Source of the DNA: a virus | Virus record (IMG/VR): IMGVR_UViG_3300031741_000010 | Span: 1-31,366 of that record | Direction: 5' to 3' (one strand) | DNA: 31,366 bases | Shown here: positions 6,617-30,929 of the stretch, piece by piece | How the letters are laid out: every line of letters begins with the position of its first letter | Position numbering within the stretch: position 1 is the stretch's first letter | Notes under the pieces: model-generated | Told to the model about the DNA's origin: nothing | Seen by the model: the letters and a program-made list of their open reading frames with translations, nothing else | Databases searched by the model: none | Position numbers and translations under genes: made by a program

Positions 6617-7387
6617 ATGACAGAACTACGCAGACTCGTATGGGATATTGAAAGCTCGCCCCTCCTCGGATACTCCTGGAAAAAGTGGGACACCTCCCTC
6701 ATCGAAATAGTTGAAGACTGGAAACTACTCTGCTTCTCCTGGCAATGGCTCGACGGACCCGACAAAAAAGTTCACGTCCTCGGAATGCCCGACGACCCCC
6801 TGTATCAGCCAGGAGTACTAGATGACGAGTGGCTGACCGAACAACTACACGACCTACTCTCGCAGGCAGACATCTCCATAGCGCACAACGGCAAAGGCTT
6901 CGATGACAAGAAAGCGAACGCCAAGTTCTTAGAACACGGGTACGGACCCGTCCCGTTTCGTAAAAGTGTGGACACCCTGCGGACGGCACGACGAGAGTTC
7001 AAGCTGTCCTCCAACTCGCTCAAAGACGTGTGCGCTTTCCTTAACGTCACCCTAAAGCAAGACCCTGGCGGGTTCGCCACCTGGAAAGGCTGCATGAAAG
7101 GCGATGAGAAGGCATGGAAACACATGTACCGCTACGCAAAAGGTGACATCCGATCCCTCGTAGACGCCTACTGGATTATGCTTCCCTTCGACAAGACACA
7201 CCCCAACCTCTCCGTATACACAGGCAAAGAAGCCTGCCCCCGCTGCCAATCCAAGCACTACCAGAAGCGCGGGACACGTTACGCTAACGCATACAGCTAC
7301 CCGCAGTACCAATGCCAAGCGTGTAAAGGGTACTTTGCTGGTCGTAGGTCTGACAGGGACACACCAAAGGTCCTCTTTAAGACCTAG
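6617..7387 (+). CDS. DnaQ/PolB-type 3'-5' exonuclease with C-terminal Zn ribbon
   Basis: 256-aa RNase H-fold exonuclease. Acidic motifs are visible: Exo I VWDIES (D10, E12), Exo II AHNGKGFDDKKAN (~residues 92-104) and Exo III GDIRSLVDAYW (~176-186). The spacing resembles the detached exonuclease domain of family B polymerases. After it comes a C4 zinc ribbon, CPRC near 207 and CQAC near 234, followed by a basic tail. The ribbon is of the type found in transposases and phage DNA-binding proteins and may target the nuclease to DNA. Shine-Dalgarno GAAGGG lies at 6607-6612. It is the last gene of the left plus-strand block and overlaps the convergent giant gene by 4 nt. Proofreading for a polymerase outside the window is possible but unproven. 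Confidence 0.85.
   Translation: MTELRRLVWDIESSPLLGYSWKKWDTSLIEIVEDWKLLCFSWQWLDGPDKKVHVLGMPDDPLYQPGVLDDEWLTEQLHDLLSQADISIAHNGKGFDDKKANAKFLEHGYGPVPFRKSVDTLRTARREFKLSSNSLKDVCAFLNVTLKQDPGGFATWKGCMKGDEKAWKHMYRYAKGDIRSLVDAYWIMLPFDKTHPNLSVYTGKEACPRCQSKHYQKRGTRYANAYSYPQYQCQACKGYFAGRRSDRDTPKVLFKT
7368..7385. terminator. Possible weak bidirectional terminator at the convergence point
   Basis: A short inverted repeat (AGGTC at 7368-7372, GACCT at 7381-7385, 8-nt A/T-rich loop) lies at the meeting point of the two transcription units. Read on the minus strand, the second arm is followed by TTTGG. A second small dyad (AGCC at 7386-7389 / GGCT at 7395-7398) adjoins it. Stems are only 4-5 bp, so this is a weak call. 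Confidence 0.28.
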
Positions 7388-10300
7388 CCTCCGGGGCTGC
7401 GGTTAGCAAACGGGTTAGGGGTCGAAGCGTCCCGGCTCGAACCGCTGCCCCCACCCAGCGCAGGACCGCTAGTGCCATCAGACAGCGTAGTCTGGTTAAC
7501 AATATCAATGAGTTTAATAGCATCAGCCTTCTCCTCTGCCTCCGACTGCACATTGCCTCTCGAAGGAACCACAACACCCGGCTTCAAGCCTGCGTACACC
7601 TGATCGCCTTTACTCATCAACGTCTGGTACACCCAAGTGGTAGATTCCAGCCACGTAGGAGCACGGCCAATGTATCGCTTGTAGTAGAAGTCCACCACGG
7701 CACGCTGCTCCCAAGCACGAACCTTAAACTTGTCCAAGTCATCGGCGGACAGAGTACCGTCACGCCACAGGTCCACAGAATACAGTTCACCAGGCTCAAT
7801 CCCGAACGGTGCCGGAAGGTTGCCCTTCTCCGTACGGGTAAGGTAGTCGTTGATAAGCCAGTCATCAAACTCCTCCTCAGTCACGTTGTCGTCGATGGCC
7901 TCCTGTACGGCCCTACTCATATCATCAAGCAGAGGCTGCAACTCGGCCAACTCCTCTATAGTCGTCCCGTACCCCATCACAGCGTTGAAGTTATTCAGAT
8001 CCTCCACAGAGGTGTCAACATCTTCCTTCGTACTGAAACGGTTAGCGTTTGACAGAGGCTCAATGTCTCGCTGTAGGAAGAACCCCTGGTTGGGTATCCC
8101 TGGGCTAGACAGTCGTAAGTTCAGAATCTCCGTATAAGTAAGGGGGGTCATACCGTTCCGTTCACGGAACAGTATTTGCGAATCTATCCTATTCTGTGTC
8201 TCAATAGCCAACTCGCCCCTAGTAGCAGGGCGATCCTCAGGCTCAGGACCAATGTAATACCCGTCGTCCCGCAGCCCGTCACGCTGCTCCTTAGTCATCG
8301 ACGCAAGCAGATCACTGTCAATGTCATCAGGGTCCGCATACCAGGCTGCCTGCAAAGCGGCAGACTGAAAAGCAAGCGCACCCGCAGCCCGAAGCTCCGA
8401 AATAGAAGGAATCTTCGAGTCAGGATACTCCTTACGGAAGGCAGTTACAGCATCCTCCACCTGGTTAATGATGTGCGCCCTAGCCCCCTCCTGCCTATCA
8501 TCAGTCATATTGAAGTTGCTCAGCCCCGTAAGGTTATTGATGTACAGAAGCCAACGGCCAACTTCGCCCTCATCCTCCATCCATTTCTCTATCAGCCCAT
8601 CAACCCTGCTGACAATAGGAAGAAAAGTCTCAAAAACCCGTAAGGCATCATTAACCCCGCCTTCCTCCAGCGGGCCACCTGTGAATGGGTCACGCCCGAA
8701 ACGGCCACCGTAGAATAAGTCCAGCACGCTTGTTGGTACACCATTGAACAGTCCCAAAGTCCTGGCGTACGTGTCCTGCTTGCCACCGTAGGTCATCCAT
8801 TCTGGCAGTATTTCGCGCAGTCCTGGTACAGACCCAGGGTAGGACCCCAAGTTCCCCAATGTGCCTGATGCTGCCACCAGAGGGGTGTCAACCCCTGCTG
8901 CCTGATACTCTGCGCCGGTTATGGCACCGTACAGTCCACCGCTGCGTAATTTGATGTTCTTCTCAGCGAACCAGTCAGGCAAAATCATGCCCTCAGGGGT
9001 GGGTATTTCGCTGCCCATAAAGGCGTCGGTTCCTGCTTCCATGACCCGTTGTGCGTTGACAACACGGCCAGGATACCTGACCAGCGAAGACGCCATTACG
9101 GCCATGTTCTTACGAGTGAAAGTATAAAACCGCATGAGAACACGGGCGGCACCAGACTCGAACTTGGTCAGGTCGGAGTAGTCAAACAGGAACGTGCGTG
9201 TGTTGCTTGCGGCCCGCTCGGGGGACATGCCCTTGATTCGTCCGTCGATGTACAGGGCAATGCGCCCGTTGTTCTCAAAAGTTTCTCCTAGTGCCCTACC
9301 TTTTGTGACAGGCCAAGACCCGAGGATGGCTTGGGCTAGCCCACCCTCATTCCCTAACATACCCACCTGGTCACCTGCTTGGCTTGAAGCTGTAATGCCC
9401 AGTGCGCGGATCTCCTCTATGAGAACTGCGTCCTCAGCACTAACACCCTTAACCGCCTTAGCTGCATCATCCCAAGTCCCACCAACCTCATCAATACGGT
9501 TCCGTATCTGCCTTTGCAGGTTCTGTATCCGTGCTGCCTGTGTGAACCGTATAGGGTTGTCAATCCCCCCGAGGGTCGCTAGGAACACGTTACCTTGTGC
9601 GTTGCGTAAATGGTGGGGAAGGCCCGTGGGCATAGGCACGGTTGCGGTTGCGGCCCAAACAGAGTTAGCAGACCGAAGGTTCCGCTGATAAACGTTCATG
9701 TCGGCGGTGGATTCCAAGAACATGCGGGTGCTGTTTAGTTCAGTGTGCATAACCTCGTTCATAAAGGTCTGCCCCCCTCCTGGTAACTGGTTGATGGCAT
9801 ACCCCTCGGTGCCTATAATCCCGTCCAGCTTCATCTGCGCTCTTACAGCAAGAATGTCCTTGGGACTTCGTGCCACGTAGGCGTACTTTCGTCCCAATTC
9901 GTCAGAGAACCTGGCAATGTCATCTGTCAGGTCCATGAGCATCTCAGCTTGGAAGGCTGCGTGCGCTCTGAAAGATATGGCGGCAACAACATCGTTGCTG
10001 AACATGTCCGCGTCGAAGTCTGCGAGGGGGTTGGGGAGGCCGTCCACGTCGTGCTGCAACGCAGCCCGCTGGGCGTCGTTGACTTCGTACAAGTCCTGTA
10101 CGGAGGCGTCAAGGTTGCGCCGATTGAGCGCCCCCTTCTGCGCTGTCATGTCAAAGACTTCCCGAGATGTTGCAGCGTCGTCAACGACCTGCCAGACACC
10201 ATCCTCAATCTTAACATCAATACCAAGGCCAGCGAAAGCGCGGGCCTTTTCTGCCCGAACAATGTCGTCGGCCTGCTCAGCCATGTACAGTTTGATGTCT

Positions 10301-22515: not shown

Positions 22516-24434
22516 TACCCTCCTAAGGTATCAAGACTAGCCATAAGGTCGTCCGTGATCTCGTCTGGTGTCATAGGCGCAGCCTGCTCCGGCATAGGTG
22601 CCGGTTCAGGGGCAGGGGCCGGTGGGCCACCTGCGAGAGCAAGCGGATCAACAGCAGGAGTACCCGCAGCATTAGGGGCAGCGTTAAGGGCAGGGTCAAT
22701 CTGCTCCTTCATCCGCTGACGGCCCGCTTCTTCGGCAGCCATCGTCTCATGTGCCTGAACGTGCATGTCAACAACCTCACGCTCATCGTCAGGTAGCTGC
22801 TCGTACTGCTGCGTTTTACGAAAGTCGTTGTGCCCCTGAATGTGAACCTCGTGGTTATCGAACTGTGCAGGCAACGCAATCTCGTGCAACGTGAACAAGG
22901 CGTTCTCCCTACGGGCCTTAGCCAGGTCGGGGGCCGCAGCGCTAATAAGGGACTCCTGCCCCGGCATGTCAGCCAAAGCGGTGTACTGTGCAATGTTCGT
23001 TATCAAACCCATCTGCATTGCCTTGTCAGCAAACTGTGCCTGTGCGGCACGGTTGCGAGGAATAATAGTTTCAACAGGAATGATAGCCCCGGTCTGCCCT
23101 TTGATCTCGCTCTTAGTCCACGAAATGCGTTCCGAAGCGTAACCCTGATTGATCGTAGCCTCATTTTTGCCCTGCTTCTCAGCCTCATACAGCTTCAAGC
23201 ACATACGCCCGACCTTAGTCCACGCCTTAGCGGACTCCTTAATCAGACGTGCAACCGGAGACGAATCCTTCTCAGCCAAAATGGACAGGCCATACCCCGA
23301 CTCGATGTTAGCCGGTGCGTTACCACGAGAAATGTCGTGGACACCCAAAATGTCATCCAACATGTCAGCCAACTGATTGGCAAGATCATTAACCCAACTG
23401 GACATCTGAGGCATCTGCATGTACTCAGGTTTTTGTAAACCGTCAGGGTACTCAATCATCTCCCCAGGAATGTCCGTGACCTGTTTCACGAAGTCCGCAG
23501 CGGAGGACGGTACTAGCATTCGCACATTCCCCGCACTGCGTAAATGTTCCAGCTTGTTAGACCAAACTGCGTTCAATGCTACCTGCACAGGGCGGGCATC
23601 ATCATAGATAGTAGAACCGGCCCACTGCGTTTCGATAAGAGTCTCACGGGTCAACGCAAAGTTTAGGCGGTCCTTCCAAGGAAACGACCAGTCGCCCTTC
23701 TGCACAATCTGACCGTCCACCTCAACAAGGAAACGGCCCTTCTCGCAGGCAGGATTAGGGCGCTCATAATAAGTAAGCACGAGGGTAAGCGGTGTCAGCG
23801 GGTCACCCGTAGTAACAGGACGGGCCTGGTAGGTTGAAAGCCCCGTGCTAGCATCCGCAGCAGGCGTAGACTCCATATCAAACATGGCCTTAACCTCACG
23901 GGGAGGCAACACCTGAGTCTTAACCCACCAACGGGCAGTCTCAGCATCACGCGCCCCAGGCTCAACCACCATCTCCGAGATAGACAGTACTGTTTCTACG
24001 GTGTCGTTTGATTTCGTGTCCCAATCTACGCAAATGGCGGAAGAACCCCCCTTCAATGTCGAAACCATATTGGCCTCACGAAGGGTTTCCCAATCATGCC
24101 CCACCCTCAAATCCTCAAGGATAGTAGCAGACAGGCGGGCCGCACGAATAGACGCATCATCTGCTGCCGTAGGCGGAACCTCGAACGCCAAATCGCGTTG
24201 CGTAAGGTTCGCCATAATCGTTCTTGTGTTCGCCCGAAGGCGGTTCATCGTAGCCTGAATGCGATCATGGTCGGCAGGAGTTTCGTCAATACGTTCCCTG
24301 CTAGAATCCCAAAACAGCCACTGGTTGCCCTCCATGAAAGCATGATTGAGCCAATAGCTTCGCACCTCGCTACGGATGGGTGATATGCCTTCGTCGTAGC
24401 GTGATCGTACCCATGCGTCTGTAACGTTTGCCAT
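22515..24434 (-). CDS. Portal protein
   Basis: 639-aa portal protein, the dodecameric ring through which DNA is packaged and ejected. The N-terminal region (RSYWLNHAFMEGNQWLFWD, then IQATMNRLRANTRTIMANL) and the central segments FALTRETLIETQWAGSTIYD and VQVALNAVWSNKLEHLR match the general pattern of podovirus-type portal proteins. The C-terminus is Pro/Ala/Met-rich (PPAPAPEPAPMPEQAAP) and ends in an acidic helix. It lies two small genes after TerL and directly before the scaffold. A TAGACT hexamer ends 5 nt before the ATG; there is no clear Shine-Dalgarno. Confidence 0.87.
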   Translation of the reverse strand: MANVTDAWVRSRYDEGISPIRSEVRSYWLNHAFMEGNQWLFWDSSRERIDETPADHDRIQATMNRLRANTRTIMANLTQRDLAFEVPPTAADDASIRAARLSATILEDLRVGHDWETLREANMVSTLKGGSSAICVDWDTKSNDTVETVLSISEMVVEPGARDAETARWWVKTQVLPPREVKAMFDMESTPAADASTGLSTYQARPVTTGDPLTPLTLVLTYYERPNPACEKGRFLVEVDGQIVQKGDWSFPWKDRLNFALTRETLIETQWAGSTIYDDARPVQVALNAVWSNKLEHLRSAGNVRMLVPSSAADFVKQVTDIPGEMIEYPDGLQKPEYMQMPQMSSWVNDLANQLADMLDDILGVHDISRGNAPANIESGYGLSILAEKDSSPVARLIKESAKAWTKVGRMCLKLYEAEKQGKNEATINQGYASERISWTKSEIKGQTGAIIPVETIIPRNRAAQAQFADKAMQMGLITNIAQYTALADMPGQESLISAAAPDLAKARRENALFTLHEIALPAQFDNHEVHIQGHNDFRKTQQYEQLPDDEREVVDMHVQAHETMAAEEAGRQRMKEQIDPALNAAPNAAGTPAVDPLALAGGPPAPAPEPAPMPEQAAPMTPDEITDDLMASLDTLGG

Positions 24435-24439
24435 GCCTT

Positions 24440-24445
24440 AGTCTA
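24440..24445 (-). promoter_or_regulatory. Candidate -10 (TAGACT) before the portal gene
   Basis: TAGACT lies 5 nt before the portal ATG. Its first three bases are also the TAG stop of the upstream small TM gene, which lowers the weight of this instance taken alone. Confidence 0.25.
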
Positions 24446-24640
24446 CACGTTCCCGCCGTCTAGTCCGACTTGCCTACGATGCGGAGGTCGCTCCGCAGGT
24501 TTAGCGGTCTTCGACACAGCAGCCGCAGCCTTAGGGTTCACCTGCGCCACCAAAGAAGCAAGCAGACGGTTATAACGGCTAGTTAAAACCACGAGCAGGC
24601 CCGCCTCCACAGCAGCTATCACCGAAAGAAGGGCAATCAT
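24443..24640 (-). CDS. 65-aa small membrane protein
   Basis: One N-terminal hydrophobic helix (IALLSVIAAVEAGLLVVL, residues 2-19) followed by a basic, Ala/Lys/Arg/Pro-rich tail (SKTAKPAERPPHRRQVG). It starts in an ATGA overlap with the preceding Zn-finger protein gene and precedes the portal. It could be a membrane anchor or signal-anchor virion protein; a lysis accessory role is also possible. No family recognised. Confidence 0.62.
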   Translation of the reverse strand: MIALLSVIAAVEAGLLVVLTSRYNRLLASLVAQVNPKAAAAVSKTAKPAERPPHRRQVGLDGGNV

Positions 24641-25038
24641 TTCTTAACCGCAACCTTCTTCTTAACCGCAACCTTCTTAACAAGAGGGGCAGTAACAGAA
24701 GGCTCCTTCTCCCCCAACCGCTCCAAAGCACGCCCCAACTGCATAGCAAGACTACTGTTAAGAACCTGCTCGTTCTCCAAAAGTTTTAGGGCAGCCGTAG
24801 CCTCCAAATCGAGACGCACCACCCGCTCCTTCAACTCCACAAACATATCTGTACTAATCATCCCAAACTCGCCACCGATCTGCACAATGCAAGCCTGACA
24901 CACATCATAAGACCCCTCAAAATCTATAAACGTTCCCTGCGCCACACCAATGTCGCCCCGCATAGCAGGCGAACCACAATTAGAACAAACAGAACCGCCA
25001 CGAGAATCGCCATTAAAATCTGGAATAATATCAAACAC
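24637..25038 (-). CDS. 133-aa Zn-finger protein with Lys-rich repeat tail
   Basis: GTG start 5 nt after the terminase stop, with a GGAAGG Shine-Dalgarno inside the terminase 3' end. N-terminal part has two C-x2-C pairs (CSNCGSPAMRG at ~18-21 and CQACIVQIG at ~47-50), a likely single zinc site. The middle is a leucine-rich helix (FVELKERVVRLDLEATAALK), possibly a coiled coil. The C-terminus repeats the hexapeptide KVAVKK twice, encoded by a perfect 18-bp tandem repeat; such tails resemble histone H1/HU-type DNA-binding extensions. Between terminase and portal, it might help bring DNA to the packaging motor, possibly as a small-terminase substitute. This is speculative. Confidence 0.68.
   Translation of the reverse strand: MFDIIPDFNGDSRGGSVCSNCGSPAMRGDIGVAQGTFIDFEGSYDVCQACIVQIGGEFGMISTDMFVELKERVVRLDLEATAALKLLENEQVLNSSLAMQLGRALERLGEKEPSVTAPLVKKVAVKKKVAVKK
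24641..24681 (-). repeat. 18-bp tandem repeat (2 perfect copies plus partial)
   Basis: Two identical 18-bp units at 24641-24658 and 24659-24676 with a partial third. On the minus strand they encode KVAVKK hexapeptides at the C-terminus of the Zn-finger protein. The copy number is likely to vary by slippage. Confidence 0.9.
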
Positions 25039-25043
25039 TAATC

Positions 25044-26801
25044 CTACCTTCCGAGACGGCCAGAAAGGCCGCCCCTGCTACGGCTACGGAACCTAGCCCG
25101 CTGCCGGTTGTCAACATACCGTTCTATCTTACCCTCAGTTGTTTGCGGGTCCTCATTGATCTCCCTCTGAATCGAAGGCAACGTCAAAGCAACAAGCCAA
25201 GCATAACCCCCCGTATCCACCTGATCGTCATGCGTAGTAGCCCTCGGAAAGTTAGCGTGCTCCTGCGTCCACGTATACAACCAGGATGCGTGCTTAGGAA
25301 TCCAAACCTGCCCATTCTTCACAGCCTGACCATACGGGATCGCCCTAGCAACCTTATCCGTATCCGCAGCCAAAGGCCGCACAGTCATACCACCCTTACG
25401 AACCATCGTCTGCACCAACGTCTGCCCAAACGTCTTATTCTCAATACCAACAAACAACGTATTATCGTGCGAAGCATAACACGCACGCAACCACGTCTCA
25501 TGGTCAGCGGACTCAACCCTGTCACGGAAACGGTTAATAAGAATCAGCTTCTGATCGAAACGGTGAAACGCCCACAAAGCATAAACCGAATAATCCGACC
25601 ACGTATTCTTAGTAGCCGCAAGATCCACCGTAGCAAACACCACACAATCATCCTGGCGAATAAGAACATCATCCTCCTCCTCCGAACGCTTCGGCAAATG
25701 ATAATAATGCACCTCATCCACAACCTTAGTCGTGTAATGATTAAACGAACCAAACATTCCCGTTTCATCCTGCGAAGGATCACCCTGATACAACGACGCA
25801 AAACTACCGGGGTCCTGCTTCTGAATAGCATTCAACTCCGCACGAGTCTTAATACTAGGACACAACGCCTCACCAGGCTCACGGCCCAACGGGTCATCAT
25901 CCTCCGCAATAGCCGGAAGACGCAAAACACACCAATCCTCCGCAGGCTTCCCCTCATCAGCATACGCAAACCTACCCGCAATATCATCCTCATGCCAACG
26001 GGTGAACATCATAATCTCAATCGGCAAACCCCTACCAGGAACACGAGTCTTACGAGAAACAAACGTACTGGTATACCACTTAGCTTTCTGGTTACGGATA
26101 GCCTGCGAATCCGCCTCAGCCTGATCCTTAAACGGGTCATCAATAATCCCCAACTGATACCCCGTACCCGTCAACGAACCACCCGTACCAACAAACCGCA
26201 TCGTCCCACCAGATTCGAGGGTCAAGCGGGCCGCAGCGGAAGTTCTGCCGCCACGCAACTTCAGGCCAGTCAACTTCTCATTATCAACAAGAAGGTTCTT
26301 CGTCTTAACCCCCCACTCCTGAGCAAACTCGTCAGAATAAGTAGCGAACGCAATCTCACGGTCAGGATGACGAAAATGGTACCAACCAGGCGTGTACTCC
26401 GTAATCAGATAAGACTTACCGTGCCTCGGCCCCATAGCGATAGCCAAACGGAACACCACACGGGCACCCGTCTTCGGGTGCTCACCATAAAACTCGTCAA
26501 TGATCTCAGGGATATTCTCGTAACTATTGCCCTCAGCAGGAAACACATCCTCACCAACAACATAAAACCAGTTAGCCGCAGGACCCGGCCCATCCGCATA
26601 CAAACGGTACTCATCCAAAGCAACAATATGGTCATTCAGGAACTCGATATGCGGAAACCTACGAGTAGCAGGATTCAACCAGCAAGCATAATCTAAGGGA
26701 GACAGAGCAGCAATCTTACGCTCCAACAGCAACTTATAACGCTTAACCTCCGCAGGCGTCGCAGAAGCAAGAAGCCCCGCATCAATCCCCTCCACAGCCA
26801 C
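25044..26801 (-). CDS. Terminase large subunit (packaging ATPase/nuclease)
   Basis: 585-aa TerL, the motor that packages phage DNA. Walker A AMGPRHGKSY (~residues 123-132), Walker B LGIIDDPFKD (~216-225) and a coupling-like segment EIMMFTRWHEDD lie in the N-terminal ATPase. The C-terminal RNase H-like nuclease shows ATVDLAATKNTWSDYSV (first Asp ~389), the acidic GIENKT strand and DDQVDTGGYAW (~520). The N-terminal ~60 residues carry the helical adaptor part. The GTG start overlaps the preceding stop (TAGTG). No convincing small subunit is adjacent. Confidence 0.96.
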   Translation of the reverse strand: MAVEGIDAGLLASATPAEVKRYKLLLERKIAALSPLDYACWLNPATRRFPHIEFLNDHIVALDEYRLYADGPGPAANWFYVVGEDVFPAEGNSYENIPEIIDEFYGEHPKTGARVVFRLAIAMGPRHGKSYLITEYTPGWYHFRHPDREIAFATYSDEFAQEWGVKTKNLLVDNEKLTGLKLRGGRTSAAARLTLESGGTMRFVGTGGSLTGTGYQLGIIDDPFKDQAEADSQAIRNQKAKWYTSTFVSRKTRVPGRGLPIEIMMFTRWHEDDIAGRFAYADEGKPAEDWCVLRLPAIAEDDDPLGREPGEALCPSIKTRAELNAIQKQDPGSFASLYQGDPSQDETGMFGSFNHYTTKVVDEVHYYHLPKRSEEEDDVLIRQDDCVVFATVDLAATKNTWSDYSVYALWAFHRFDQKLILINRFRDRVESADHETWLRACYASHDNTLFVGIENKTFGQTLVQTMVRKGGMTVRPLAADTDKVARAIPYGQAVKNGQVWIPKHASWLYTWTQEHANFPRATTHDDQVDTGGYAWLVALTLPSIQREINEDPQTTEGKIERYVDNRQRARFRSRSRGGLSGRLGR

Positions 26802-28659: not shown

Positions 28660-28800
28660 AAGTACACGAACGCACACGACACGCACCCGTAGACACGCAC
28701 GCACACGCGCACGCACGACACGCGCGCGCACACACACGCCAGACGAACGCACGCACACGCCACCCGCGCGAGACGGAGACGGAGACCAGCGACAGACAGT
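28660..28800. repeat. Alternating CA/CG low-complexity tract (Z-DNA prone)
   Basis: About 140 nt dominated by ACGCAC, CGCGCG and CACACA units. From about 28688 to 28799 there is essentially one T on the plus strand. Alternating purine-pyrimidine CG/CA runs favour Z-DNA. It ends in GAGACGG repeats. The flanks have normal composition. Confidence 0.8.
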
Positions 28801-28861
28801 GAGACGGGCTAGGTGTCATTGGCCTACGTTGTCGTAGTCGGATATTGTTTCGGGTCTATGC

Positions 28862-29672: not shown

Positions 29673-29686
29673 TTGGTGTTGCGACG

Positions 29687-29725
29687 GTAGCTAGCGAGCC
29701 TTGGTTCGTTGGCTAGCGTGGCTAC
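29687..29725 (+). other. Imperfect inverted repeat between small genes
   Basis: GTAGC (29687-29691) pairs with GCTAC (29721-29725), and AGCC with GGCT inside, around a 10-nt loop. The string CTAGCG occurs twice. No T-run follows, so it is not a clear terminator; it could be an mRNA processing or stability hairpin before the 216-aa gene. Confidence 0.4.
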
Positions 29726-29763
29726 ATTAGCCTAACAATAAACTAACAAAGGATTACCACGAC

Positions 29764-30414
29764 ATGACTTTAACGATGACTGAACAGGTAGCGCGTTCGC
29801 GTCGCCTTATTATGGCGGCGACTGGCGATGAGTATGGTGATAGTGTAGAAATGCATCATTACACTGGCAACGTAGAGCCAGGGTATGACGATCAACCTAT
29901 GATTACAGCAGACTGGAACGATAAGAGCACTTATGATCGCGAGACTAGTACTCGCACTGTCACTGATACCCGTCCGGGTAGGTTGTTTGACGCGTTAGAG
30001 CGTTGGTGTCCTGACATCCAGCTGGATTGGTGTGATGAGTGGTCTAGTTGTGGCGAGTGTGGCAAAGCTGTTCGTTCTACGGGTAATTCTTATAGTTGGA
30101 CGCCATCCTACGCTATTCTTGGGGATGACTTTGTTTGCCATGAGTGTATAGCGGACGATCCTACAGCCTATTTGGAGACGTTAACGAATAACGCGCACAG
30201 TGCTAACACTATGCTGGATGCGGACTATTTCGAGGGCAACGGGTACGAACAGCATAACGGGACGTATGCGTCTGGATGGTTTGACGGGCAGACTGACGAT
30301 CCGGTTAAGATTCTTAGCTTATTGGACACGGACACTAATGAGTTCGTGTTTGACCTTACTGAACAGAGCCAGTTCTATGCTAGGTTCACGCTCTGGTTCC
30401 GTCCGGTAGCGTAG
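29764..30414 (+). CDS. 216-aa hypothetical protein with Cys-pair zinc site
   Basis: Shine-Dalgarno AAAGGA (29748-29753) in the recurring leader ACTAACAAAGGA. A central zinc-finger-like element: CGECGKAV near residue 97 and CHEC near 125. The remainder is acidic and Tyr/Trp-rich (MHHYTGNVEPGYDDQ, FEGNGYEQHNGTYASGWFDG). It ends in a beta-like QFYARFTLWFRPV. No catalytic motif or known family. It is the largest gene of the right arm and probably an early accessory protein. Confidence 0.75.
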   Translation: MTLTMTEQVARSRRLIMAATGDEYGDSVEMHHYTGNVEPGYDDQPMITADWNDKSTYDRETSTRTVTDTRPGRLFDALERWCPDIQLDWCDEWSSCGECGKAVRSTGNSYSWTPSYAILGDDFVCHECIADDPTAYLETLTNNAHSANTMLDADYFEGNGYEQHNGTYASGWFDGQTDDPVKILSLLDTDTNEFVFDLTEQSQFYARFTLWFRPVA

Positions 30415-30421
30415 CCACACG

Positions 30422-30472
30422 GCACCGTTAGCGCTTACGGGCTAGCTAGAGGGTTCGATCCCCTACGGTGCA
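30422..30472 (+). ncRNA. Compact tRNA-like element without anticodon arm
   Basis: A 7-bp acceptor-like stem (GCACCGT 30422-30428 with ACGGTGC 30465-30471, perfect) encloses a D-arm-like hairpin (TAGC 29-32 with GCTA 41-44, 8-nt loop containing GG), a 4-nt linker and a T-arm with the canonical GTTCGATC loop (stem GGG/CCC plus one A-T). A single A follows; no CCA is encoded. The anticodon arm is absent and total length is only ~51 nt, so it is not a normal tRNA. It may be a tRNA remnant, a tRNA mimic, or part of an attachment site. Confidence 0.45.
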
Positions 30473-30496
30473 CTAACTACTAACAGAGGATTAGAT

Positions 30497-30700
30497 ATGC
30501 ACGCTAAAGGATATGACACGCCAGAATATAGGGCGGTGTACAAGCGCAACGCTAGGTTGTTGTTGGCTGTTCGTTCGTCGATTGACAACGGCAACCTTGG
30601 GCCTCTTGTTGCGTTGCGTCGTGCTCTTGCGGCCAATAGTGCTTTGGTGCCTACGGTGTTGCCGTATGGCTGGCCGTTCTGGCCGCCGGTGTCGGCATGA
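30497..30700 (+). CDS. 67-aa basic hypothetical protein
   Basis: ATG preceded by AGAGGA in a variant of the recurring leader (ACTAACAGAGGA). N-terminal half basic and helical (EYRAVYKRNARLLLAVRSS), C-terminal end Pro/Trp-rich (VLPYGWPFWPPVSA), which might bind a partner or a membrane. Stop overlaps the next ATG (ATGA). No family recognised. Confidence 0.65.
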   Translation: MHAKGYDTPEYRAVYKRNARLLLAVRSSIDNGNLGPLVALRRALAANSALVPTVLPYGWPFWPPVSA

Positions 30701-30831: not shown

Positions 30832-30836
30832 CTCTA

Positions 30837-30856
30837 CGGCGGGTCTGCCGGTTTTT
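30837..30856 (+). terminator. Short intrinsic terminator candidate
   Basis: CGGC / GCCG stem (4 bp, 6-nt loop) followed by G and T5, six nt after the stop of the membrane mini-protein and just before a new promoter. The stem is short. Confidence 0.45.
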
Positions 30857-30872
30857 GTAACCGAACTGTAAC

Positions 30873-30900
30873 TTGACTTTTTATTACCAAGGTCTAAGCT
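30873..30900 (+). promoter_or_regulatory. Sigma70-type promoter
   Basis: -35 TTGACT (30873-30878), 16-nt spacer, -10 TAAGCT (30895-30900). It is followed by the recurring leader with AAAGGAAG and the ATG at 30930. Together with the upstream terminator it starts a new unit. Confidence 0.6.
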
Positions 30901-30929
30901 TAGGCCAACTAACAAAGGAAGTAACCACG

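Follow-up and report, generated by a model that had tools for sequence, protein, structure and literature searches.

What is a tRNA-like element without an anticodon arm doing between two genes of a phage? The question is raised by the marine phage record IMGVR_UViG_3300031741_000010, of which a stretch of 31,366 bases was analyzed (hereafter "the window"). On its plus strand, positions 30422 to 30471 hold a 50-nt element in which an acceptor-like helix of 7 bp encloses a D-arm-like hairpin and a T-arm with GTTCGATC, each of 4 bp. All of these pairs (7 + 4 + 4) are present and Watson-Crick. The anticodon arm is absent, with only 5 nt separating the D-like and T hairpins. Sequence and fold thus confirm the arrangement put forward in an earlier sequence-only reading of this DNA. 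The T-arm carries a canonical 7-nt T-loop, and the acceptor helix and T-stem stack over 11 bp, compared with 12 in a canonical tRNA. The element fills the gene junction, starting 7 nt past a stop codon and followed 25 nt on by the next ATG, an exact placement that the sequence-only reading does not mention. The features of this region, all on the plus strand, are the following.

29673-29763, +: preceding junction, with a long stable hairpin that is not tRNA-like (-34 kcal/mol, z = -4.1); it reads GTAGCTAGCGAGCC...GGCTAGCGTGGCTAC and is possibly an RNase III-type processing site
29764-30414, +: upstream gene, 216 aa, phrog_35561 (unknown function), its stop codon 7 nt before the element
30422-30428, +: acceptor-like helix, 5' strand GCACCGT, seven Watson-Crick pairs with 30465-30471
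30429-30444, +: D-arm-like hairpin TAGC(GCTTACGG)GCTA with GGG in the loop region (sequence, fold)
30445-30449, +: connector GCTAG, 5 nt, in the place of the anticodon arm (sequence)
30450-30464, +: T-arm AGGG-TTCGATC-CCCT (sequence, fold, and blastn matches mostly to phage tRNA T-arms and acceptors)
30465-30471, +: acceptor-like helix, 3' strand ACGGTGC (sequence, fold)
30472-30496, +: unpaired, discriminator-like A30472 without CCA, then the leader CTAACTACTAAC with a Shine-Dalgarno-like AGAGGA (sequence)
30497-30700, +: downstream ORF, 67 aa, without a family match (ORF, family scan)

Strong RNA structure is therefore found in two successive junctions of the same gene string, at 29673-29763 and then at the element. 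The right arm of the window, where they lie, encodes small accessory genes. In Rhodococcus phage ChewyVIII, a homologue of the upstream gene adjoins an OCR-like antirestriction gene. Further along the window, ACGGCGGGTCTGCCGGTTTTT at 30832-30929 looks like an intrinsic terminator and is followed by a promoter-like TTGACT...TAAGCT. At 28662-28861, where the divergent gene arms meet, there is a strongly biased ACACGCACGC-type stretch whose shuffles are more structured than itself (z +3.4). The major capsid protein is about 31-33% identical to those of Arthrobacter, Microbacterium, and Cellulosimicrobium phages, and from this resemblance the host is likely to be an actinobacterium.

The element has a minimum free energy (MFE) of -22.8 kcal/mol in RNAfold (z = -2.7), and 2 of 200 shuffles are equally stable. 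At -20.3 kcal/mol, the drawn cloverleaf falls short of this optimum; in the MFE fold, two acceptor pairs are given up and the D-like hairpin is longer. A strict definition was drawn up, consisting of a GTTCRANNC loop, at least four Watson-Crick T-stem pairs, seven Watson-Crick acceptor pairs directly stacked, and a short span. It has a single match in the window, and finds matches in 2 of 3000 dinucleotide-shuffled windows, so that chance alone poorly explains the structure. When longer spans are allowed, this looser definition gives four perfect acceptors in 400 shuffles. A chance structure might still be argued for, since the element was chosen post hoc after many windows had been read and its drawn fold is not the MFE, but the shuffled windows, the position in the junction, and the recurrence described below make such an accident scarcely credible.

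ARAGORN finds no tRNA in the window, the Rfam tRNA model does not match the element even at E<=10, and 5 nt replace the anticodon arm; by standard tests, then, the element is not a tRNA. No Rfam family matches at gathering thresholds. At E<=10, mascRNA-menRNA (RF01684) is the sole model aligning end to end, with an insignificant 13.1 bits (E = 6.7) against a family threshold of 42.5. A covariance model from MAFFT alignments A1-A3 was dropped because the 5' acceptor strand was misaligned. When the DNA of the element was searched for, neither exact nor near matches turned up in phages, genomes, or viral contigs. The blastn matches of this stretch to named phages are all insignificant (best E about 0.5). 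Since most of the matches shown are the T-arm and acceptor parts of annotated phage tRNAs, a tRNA ancestry is supported, and with it the earlier proposal of a tRNA-derived structure whose anticodon arm is missing.

One use that phages make of tRNA segments is as attP, in which a host tRNA 3' end is copied and used by the integrase. Truncated tRNA-like attP genes of about 57 nt are found in viral genomes such as that of halovirus HF2 (PMC8707807), and the segment normally used as attP is the T-arm with the 3' end of the acceptor. The HF2 genes adjoin an integrase and match host tRNAs, whereas neither is found for the window element: its 20-nt T-arm/acceptor 3' sequence has no exact match in 84,980 host-species genomes, and the window genes that were scanned include no integrase, the contig being a fragment. 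Nor is a perfect 5' acceptor strand expected of an attP. In Corynebacterium sp. MSK041 (L341:4801-4840), a T-arm look-alike comes directly after the C-terminus of an apparent tyrosine integrase, identified by reading only, and is probably an att site. For the window element, the attP role that had been suggested earlier is not supported by these comparisons and seems very improbable.

Comparable elements exist at gene junctions in other phage contigs that are free of tRNAs. Pattern scans fixed the T-arm together with a downstream ACTAAC or ACYAAC, or with an upstream TTAGC, and left the acceptor strands free, so that their pairing could be tested on the results. They gave ordinary tRNAs plus short look-alikes without an anticodon arm. 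Most TTAGC...GGGTTCGATCCC matches are ordinary tRNAs, and the matches in Streptomyces phages Rima and Namo turned out on inspection not to be tRNA-like. Contig L033 has TTAGCG-17nt-GGGTTCGATCCCC-6nt-GCACTAAC in common with the window at identical spacing, while the two differ in their acceptor and T-stem pairs. The L033 element lies 6 nt past a stop codon and 26 nt ahead of an anti-restriction-type gene. Three elements are found in the 39-kb record of a distantly related phage (L345, the same record as L292), whose exonuclease is homologous to window 6617-7387. They read GCGCC-11 nt-CTCAGG/CCTGAG-AGCGC (with one acceptor mismatch), GCGCT-11 nt-GGCGGG/CTCGCC-AGCGC, and GCGCTG-16 nt-CACGGG/CCCGTG-CAGCGC. 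The acceptor is common to the three, and the T-stems are all different yet paired, with both sides changed at several pairs, which we read as compensatory change among paralogues. The leader layout 3' of the window element resembles that in L033 and in L345/L292. Further cases are L287, L311, L039, and L226, the last with three elements. The reverse complement of L226 at 8095-9595 also has a repeated hairpin, GACTCTCCCTG(A/T)TAAGGGTGAGGAGAGTC, at gene junctions near the mini-tRNAs.

The pairing is in excess of what is expected. In a sample of 59 distinct T-arms from 43 tRNA-free contigs, where the expectation comes from swapping the upstream sequences between T-arms, there are 10 short acceptor/T-arm stacks with a score of at least 20, versus 1.25 expected and a maximum of 5 in 1000 swaps. 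The excess is smaller in the whole set (17 versus 5.9, maximum 15), and individual members may therefore be due to chance, above all the low scorers and those in coding sequence (L133, L304, L293). A longer-span test (45 versus 4.9) was discounted, as that span admits full-length tRNAs missed by ARAGORN; its short-span version gives 8 versus 2.7 and 5 versus 0.56. Among the 18 elements listed, 7 have an upstream stop codon 6-17 nt away, and in 15 the next ATG is 10-35 nt downstream. Several of the T-arm patterns by which the loci were retrieved also required ACTAAC/AGGA, so that the start-codon distance and the Shine-Dalgarno layout are partly a selection effect; the upstream-stop distance was not built into the patterns. 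A D-loop-like GG is present in the linker in 15 of 18 cases (11.4 expected, p about 0.016 in a weak test), a weak hint of a D-loop-type contact with the T-loop. The window element shares the traits of the group, namely a short stack without an anticodon arm, placed after a stop codon and 10-35 nt before a start. A class of junction mini-tRNAs lacking the anticodon arm is thus fairly well supported.

The main rival explanation is a remnant: a deletion would have removed the anticodon arm from a phage tRNA gene at the junction, and what is left would now be in decay. The tRNA-like sequence seen by blastn fits such an origin. Short tRNA-like pieces without an anticodon arm, followed by CCA, do occur in tRNA-bearing phages (L245:1259-1305, L237:5611-5663, L156:10045-10082). 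In ctEqG8 (MW202795.1), whose capsid is related to the window's, four full-length tRNAs stand singly between small genes at 22962-26124, the Lys and Arg tRNAs ending 2 nt ahead of an annotated start codon. Single full tRNAs of this type are a plausible candidate ancestor of the elements. Decay, however, does not readily account for the intact pairs and T-loop of the window copy, nor for a tRNA-free contig having several copies whose T-stems differ and yet are paired. Comparable elements also stay invariant beside diverging genes. Four contigs share the three L226-type elements without any difference, while in two of them the gene that follows the third element has about 80% identity (208-210 of 260). 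L039 and L041 agree at 40 of 40 positions of the L039-type element; their downstream genes are 80% identical and their upstream sequences unrelated (38/100). Because the element is invariant while the upstream sequence is unrelated, it appears tied to the downstream gene. In both families, this invariance argues against simple decay. The remnant that the sequence-only reading had allowed for is possible but disfavored, and we hold it to be doubtful; the recurrence at gene junctions suggests cutting signals in phage mRNA rather than broken tRNAs.

The same junction was not found in relatives of the window phage by protein-based or DNA searches. The upstream gene has no match in viral contigs at the protein level. 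Relatives found through the terminase (about 40-55% identity) have none of the right-arm genes in common with the window, and those whose contigs extend far enough (L004, L005, L007, L011) show no such element. None was seen either where relatives of the downstream 93-aa gene are located. Because no relative with a homologous junction was found, selection on the window copy is deduced from the other phages. These mostly have no protein homology to the window phage, and convergence or chance may account for some of their elements.

Our preferred reading, to which we give a probability of about 0.45, is that of a retained tRNA-derived mRNA element serving as a cleavage signal for host RNase P and setting the 5' end of the downstream mRNA. 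Hairpins made of only an acceptor stem, a T-stem, and a T-loop are efficient and correctly cleaved RNase P substrates (PMC11143913), and the element has this stacked acceptor/T-stem and T-loop. In the proposed mechanism, the tRNA-derived "top half" would be transcribed within a polycistronic phage mRNA, at the junction of two genes. Host RNase P would recognize the stacked acceptor/T-arm as a pre-tRNA and cut just 5' of G30422, releasing the upstream mRNA 7 nt past its stop codon. The downstream mRNA would then retain a stable structure at its 5' end, 25 nt ahead of its start codon. A second, RNase Z-like cut on the 3' side, after 30471/30472, might free the mRNA leader along with a mini-tRNA of roughly 50 nt. 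The 3' RCC(A) that strengthens RNase P substrates, without being absolutely required, is absent. As the acceptor is followed by ACT (ACTA in full) instead of CCA or RCC, weaker binding by the bacterial enzyme is to be expected. The 11-bp stack and the suboptimal cloverleaf also speak against this reading.

A structured leader could do without any RNase P cut, stabilizing the mRNA against RNases or controlling ribosome access. The location after a stop codon and 25 nt before a start codon suits this role, as does the very stable hairpin in the neighboring junction. A plain hairpin would suffice for it, however, which leaves the retained T-loop sequence and the stacked acceptor unexplained, and we regard it as unlikely. 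It is more doubtful still that the element acts in trans, as a mini-tRNA decoy or regulator of host enzymes that handle acceptors and T-arms (modifying enzymes, CCA-adding enzymes, or defense nucleases). The accessory genes of the right arm would be fitting company for such a function, and both the upstream-gene homologue and the L033 element adjoin anti-restriction-type genes, but without an anticodon loop the RNA could not be a decoy for anticodon nucleases.

The RNase P reading has several parallels in known systems. RNase P model substrates such as AT1 (PMC11143913) have the same minimal domain, a stacked acceptor/T-stem with a canonical T-loop. The window element differs in that it is natural, sits in a gene junction, has an extra D-like hairpin and 11 bp, and lacks the RCCA end, and in that its cleavage by RNase P is a proposal. 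Like it, mascRNA and the MEN beta tRNA-like RNA are small tRNA-like structures inside a longer transcript, from which RNase P and RNase Z excise them. However, mascRNA comes from an animal lncRNA, is not homologous to the element, which scores far below its cut-off, and retains a reduced arm on the anticodon side. In mitochondria, tRNA-shaped elements between genes punctuate polycistronic mRNAs and define cut sites, as is proposed here. Those are full functional tRNAs, whereas the phage elements are tRNA tops without the decoding arm, at which cutting is postulated. The C4 RNA precursor of phages P1 and P7 and the his operon mRNA are RNase P substrates (cited in PMC11143913). The likeness to our proposal is that a phage RNA and a bacterial mRNA are cut by RNase P. 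To our knowledge, neither is known to have a tRNA T-loop/acceptor mini-structure directly before a start codon. Our targeted full-text searches of open-access papers turned up tRNA-like attP genes, tRNA punctuation in mitochondria, and mRNAs and phage RNAs that are RNase P substrates, but no description of a class of anticodon-less mini-tRNAs in phages.

More tentatively, anticodon-less mini-tRNAs of 35-55 nt might serve as mRNA punctuation in many tRNA-free phages, with cuts of polycistronic transcripts by host RNase P and possibly RNase Z setting mRNA 5' ends directly ahead of start codons. If this is true, phages would be cutting their own messages with host RNase P, normally a tRNA enzyme, by means of a stripped-down tRNA. 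Because standard tRNA finders and Rfam miss them, such elements may be widespread and unannotated. The same reading could also account for the single tRNAs and tRNA pieces that lie exactly between phage genes.
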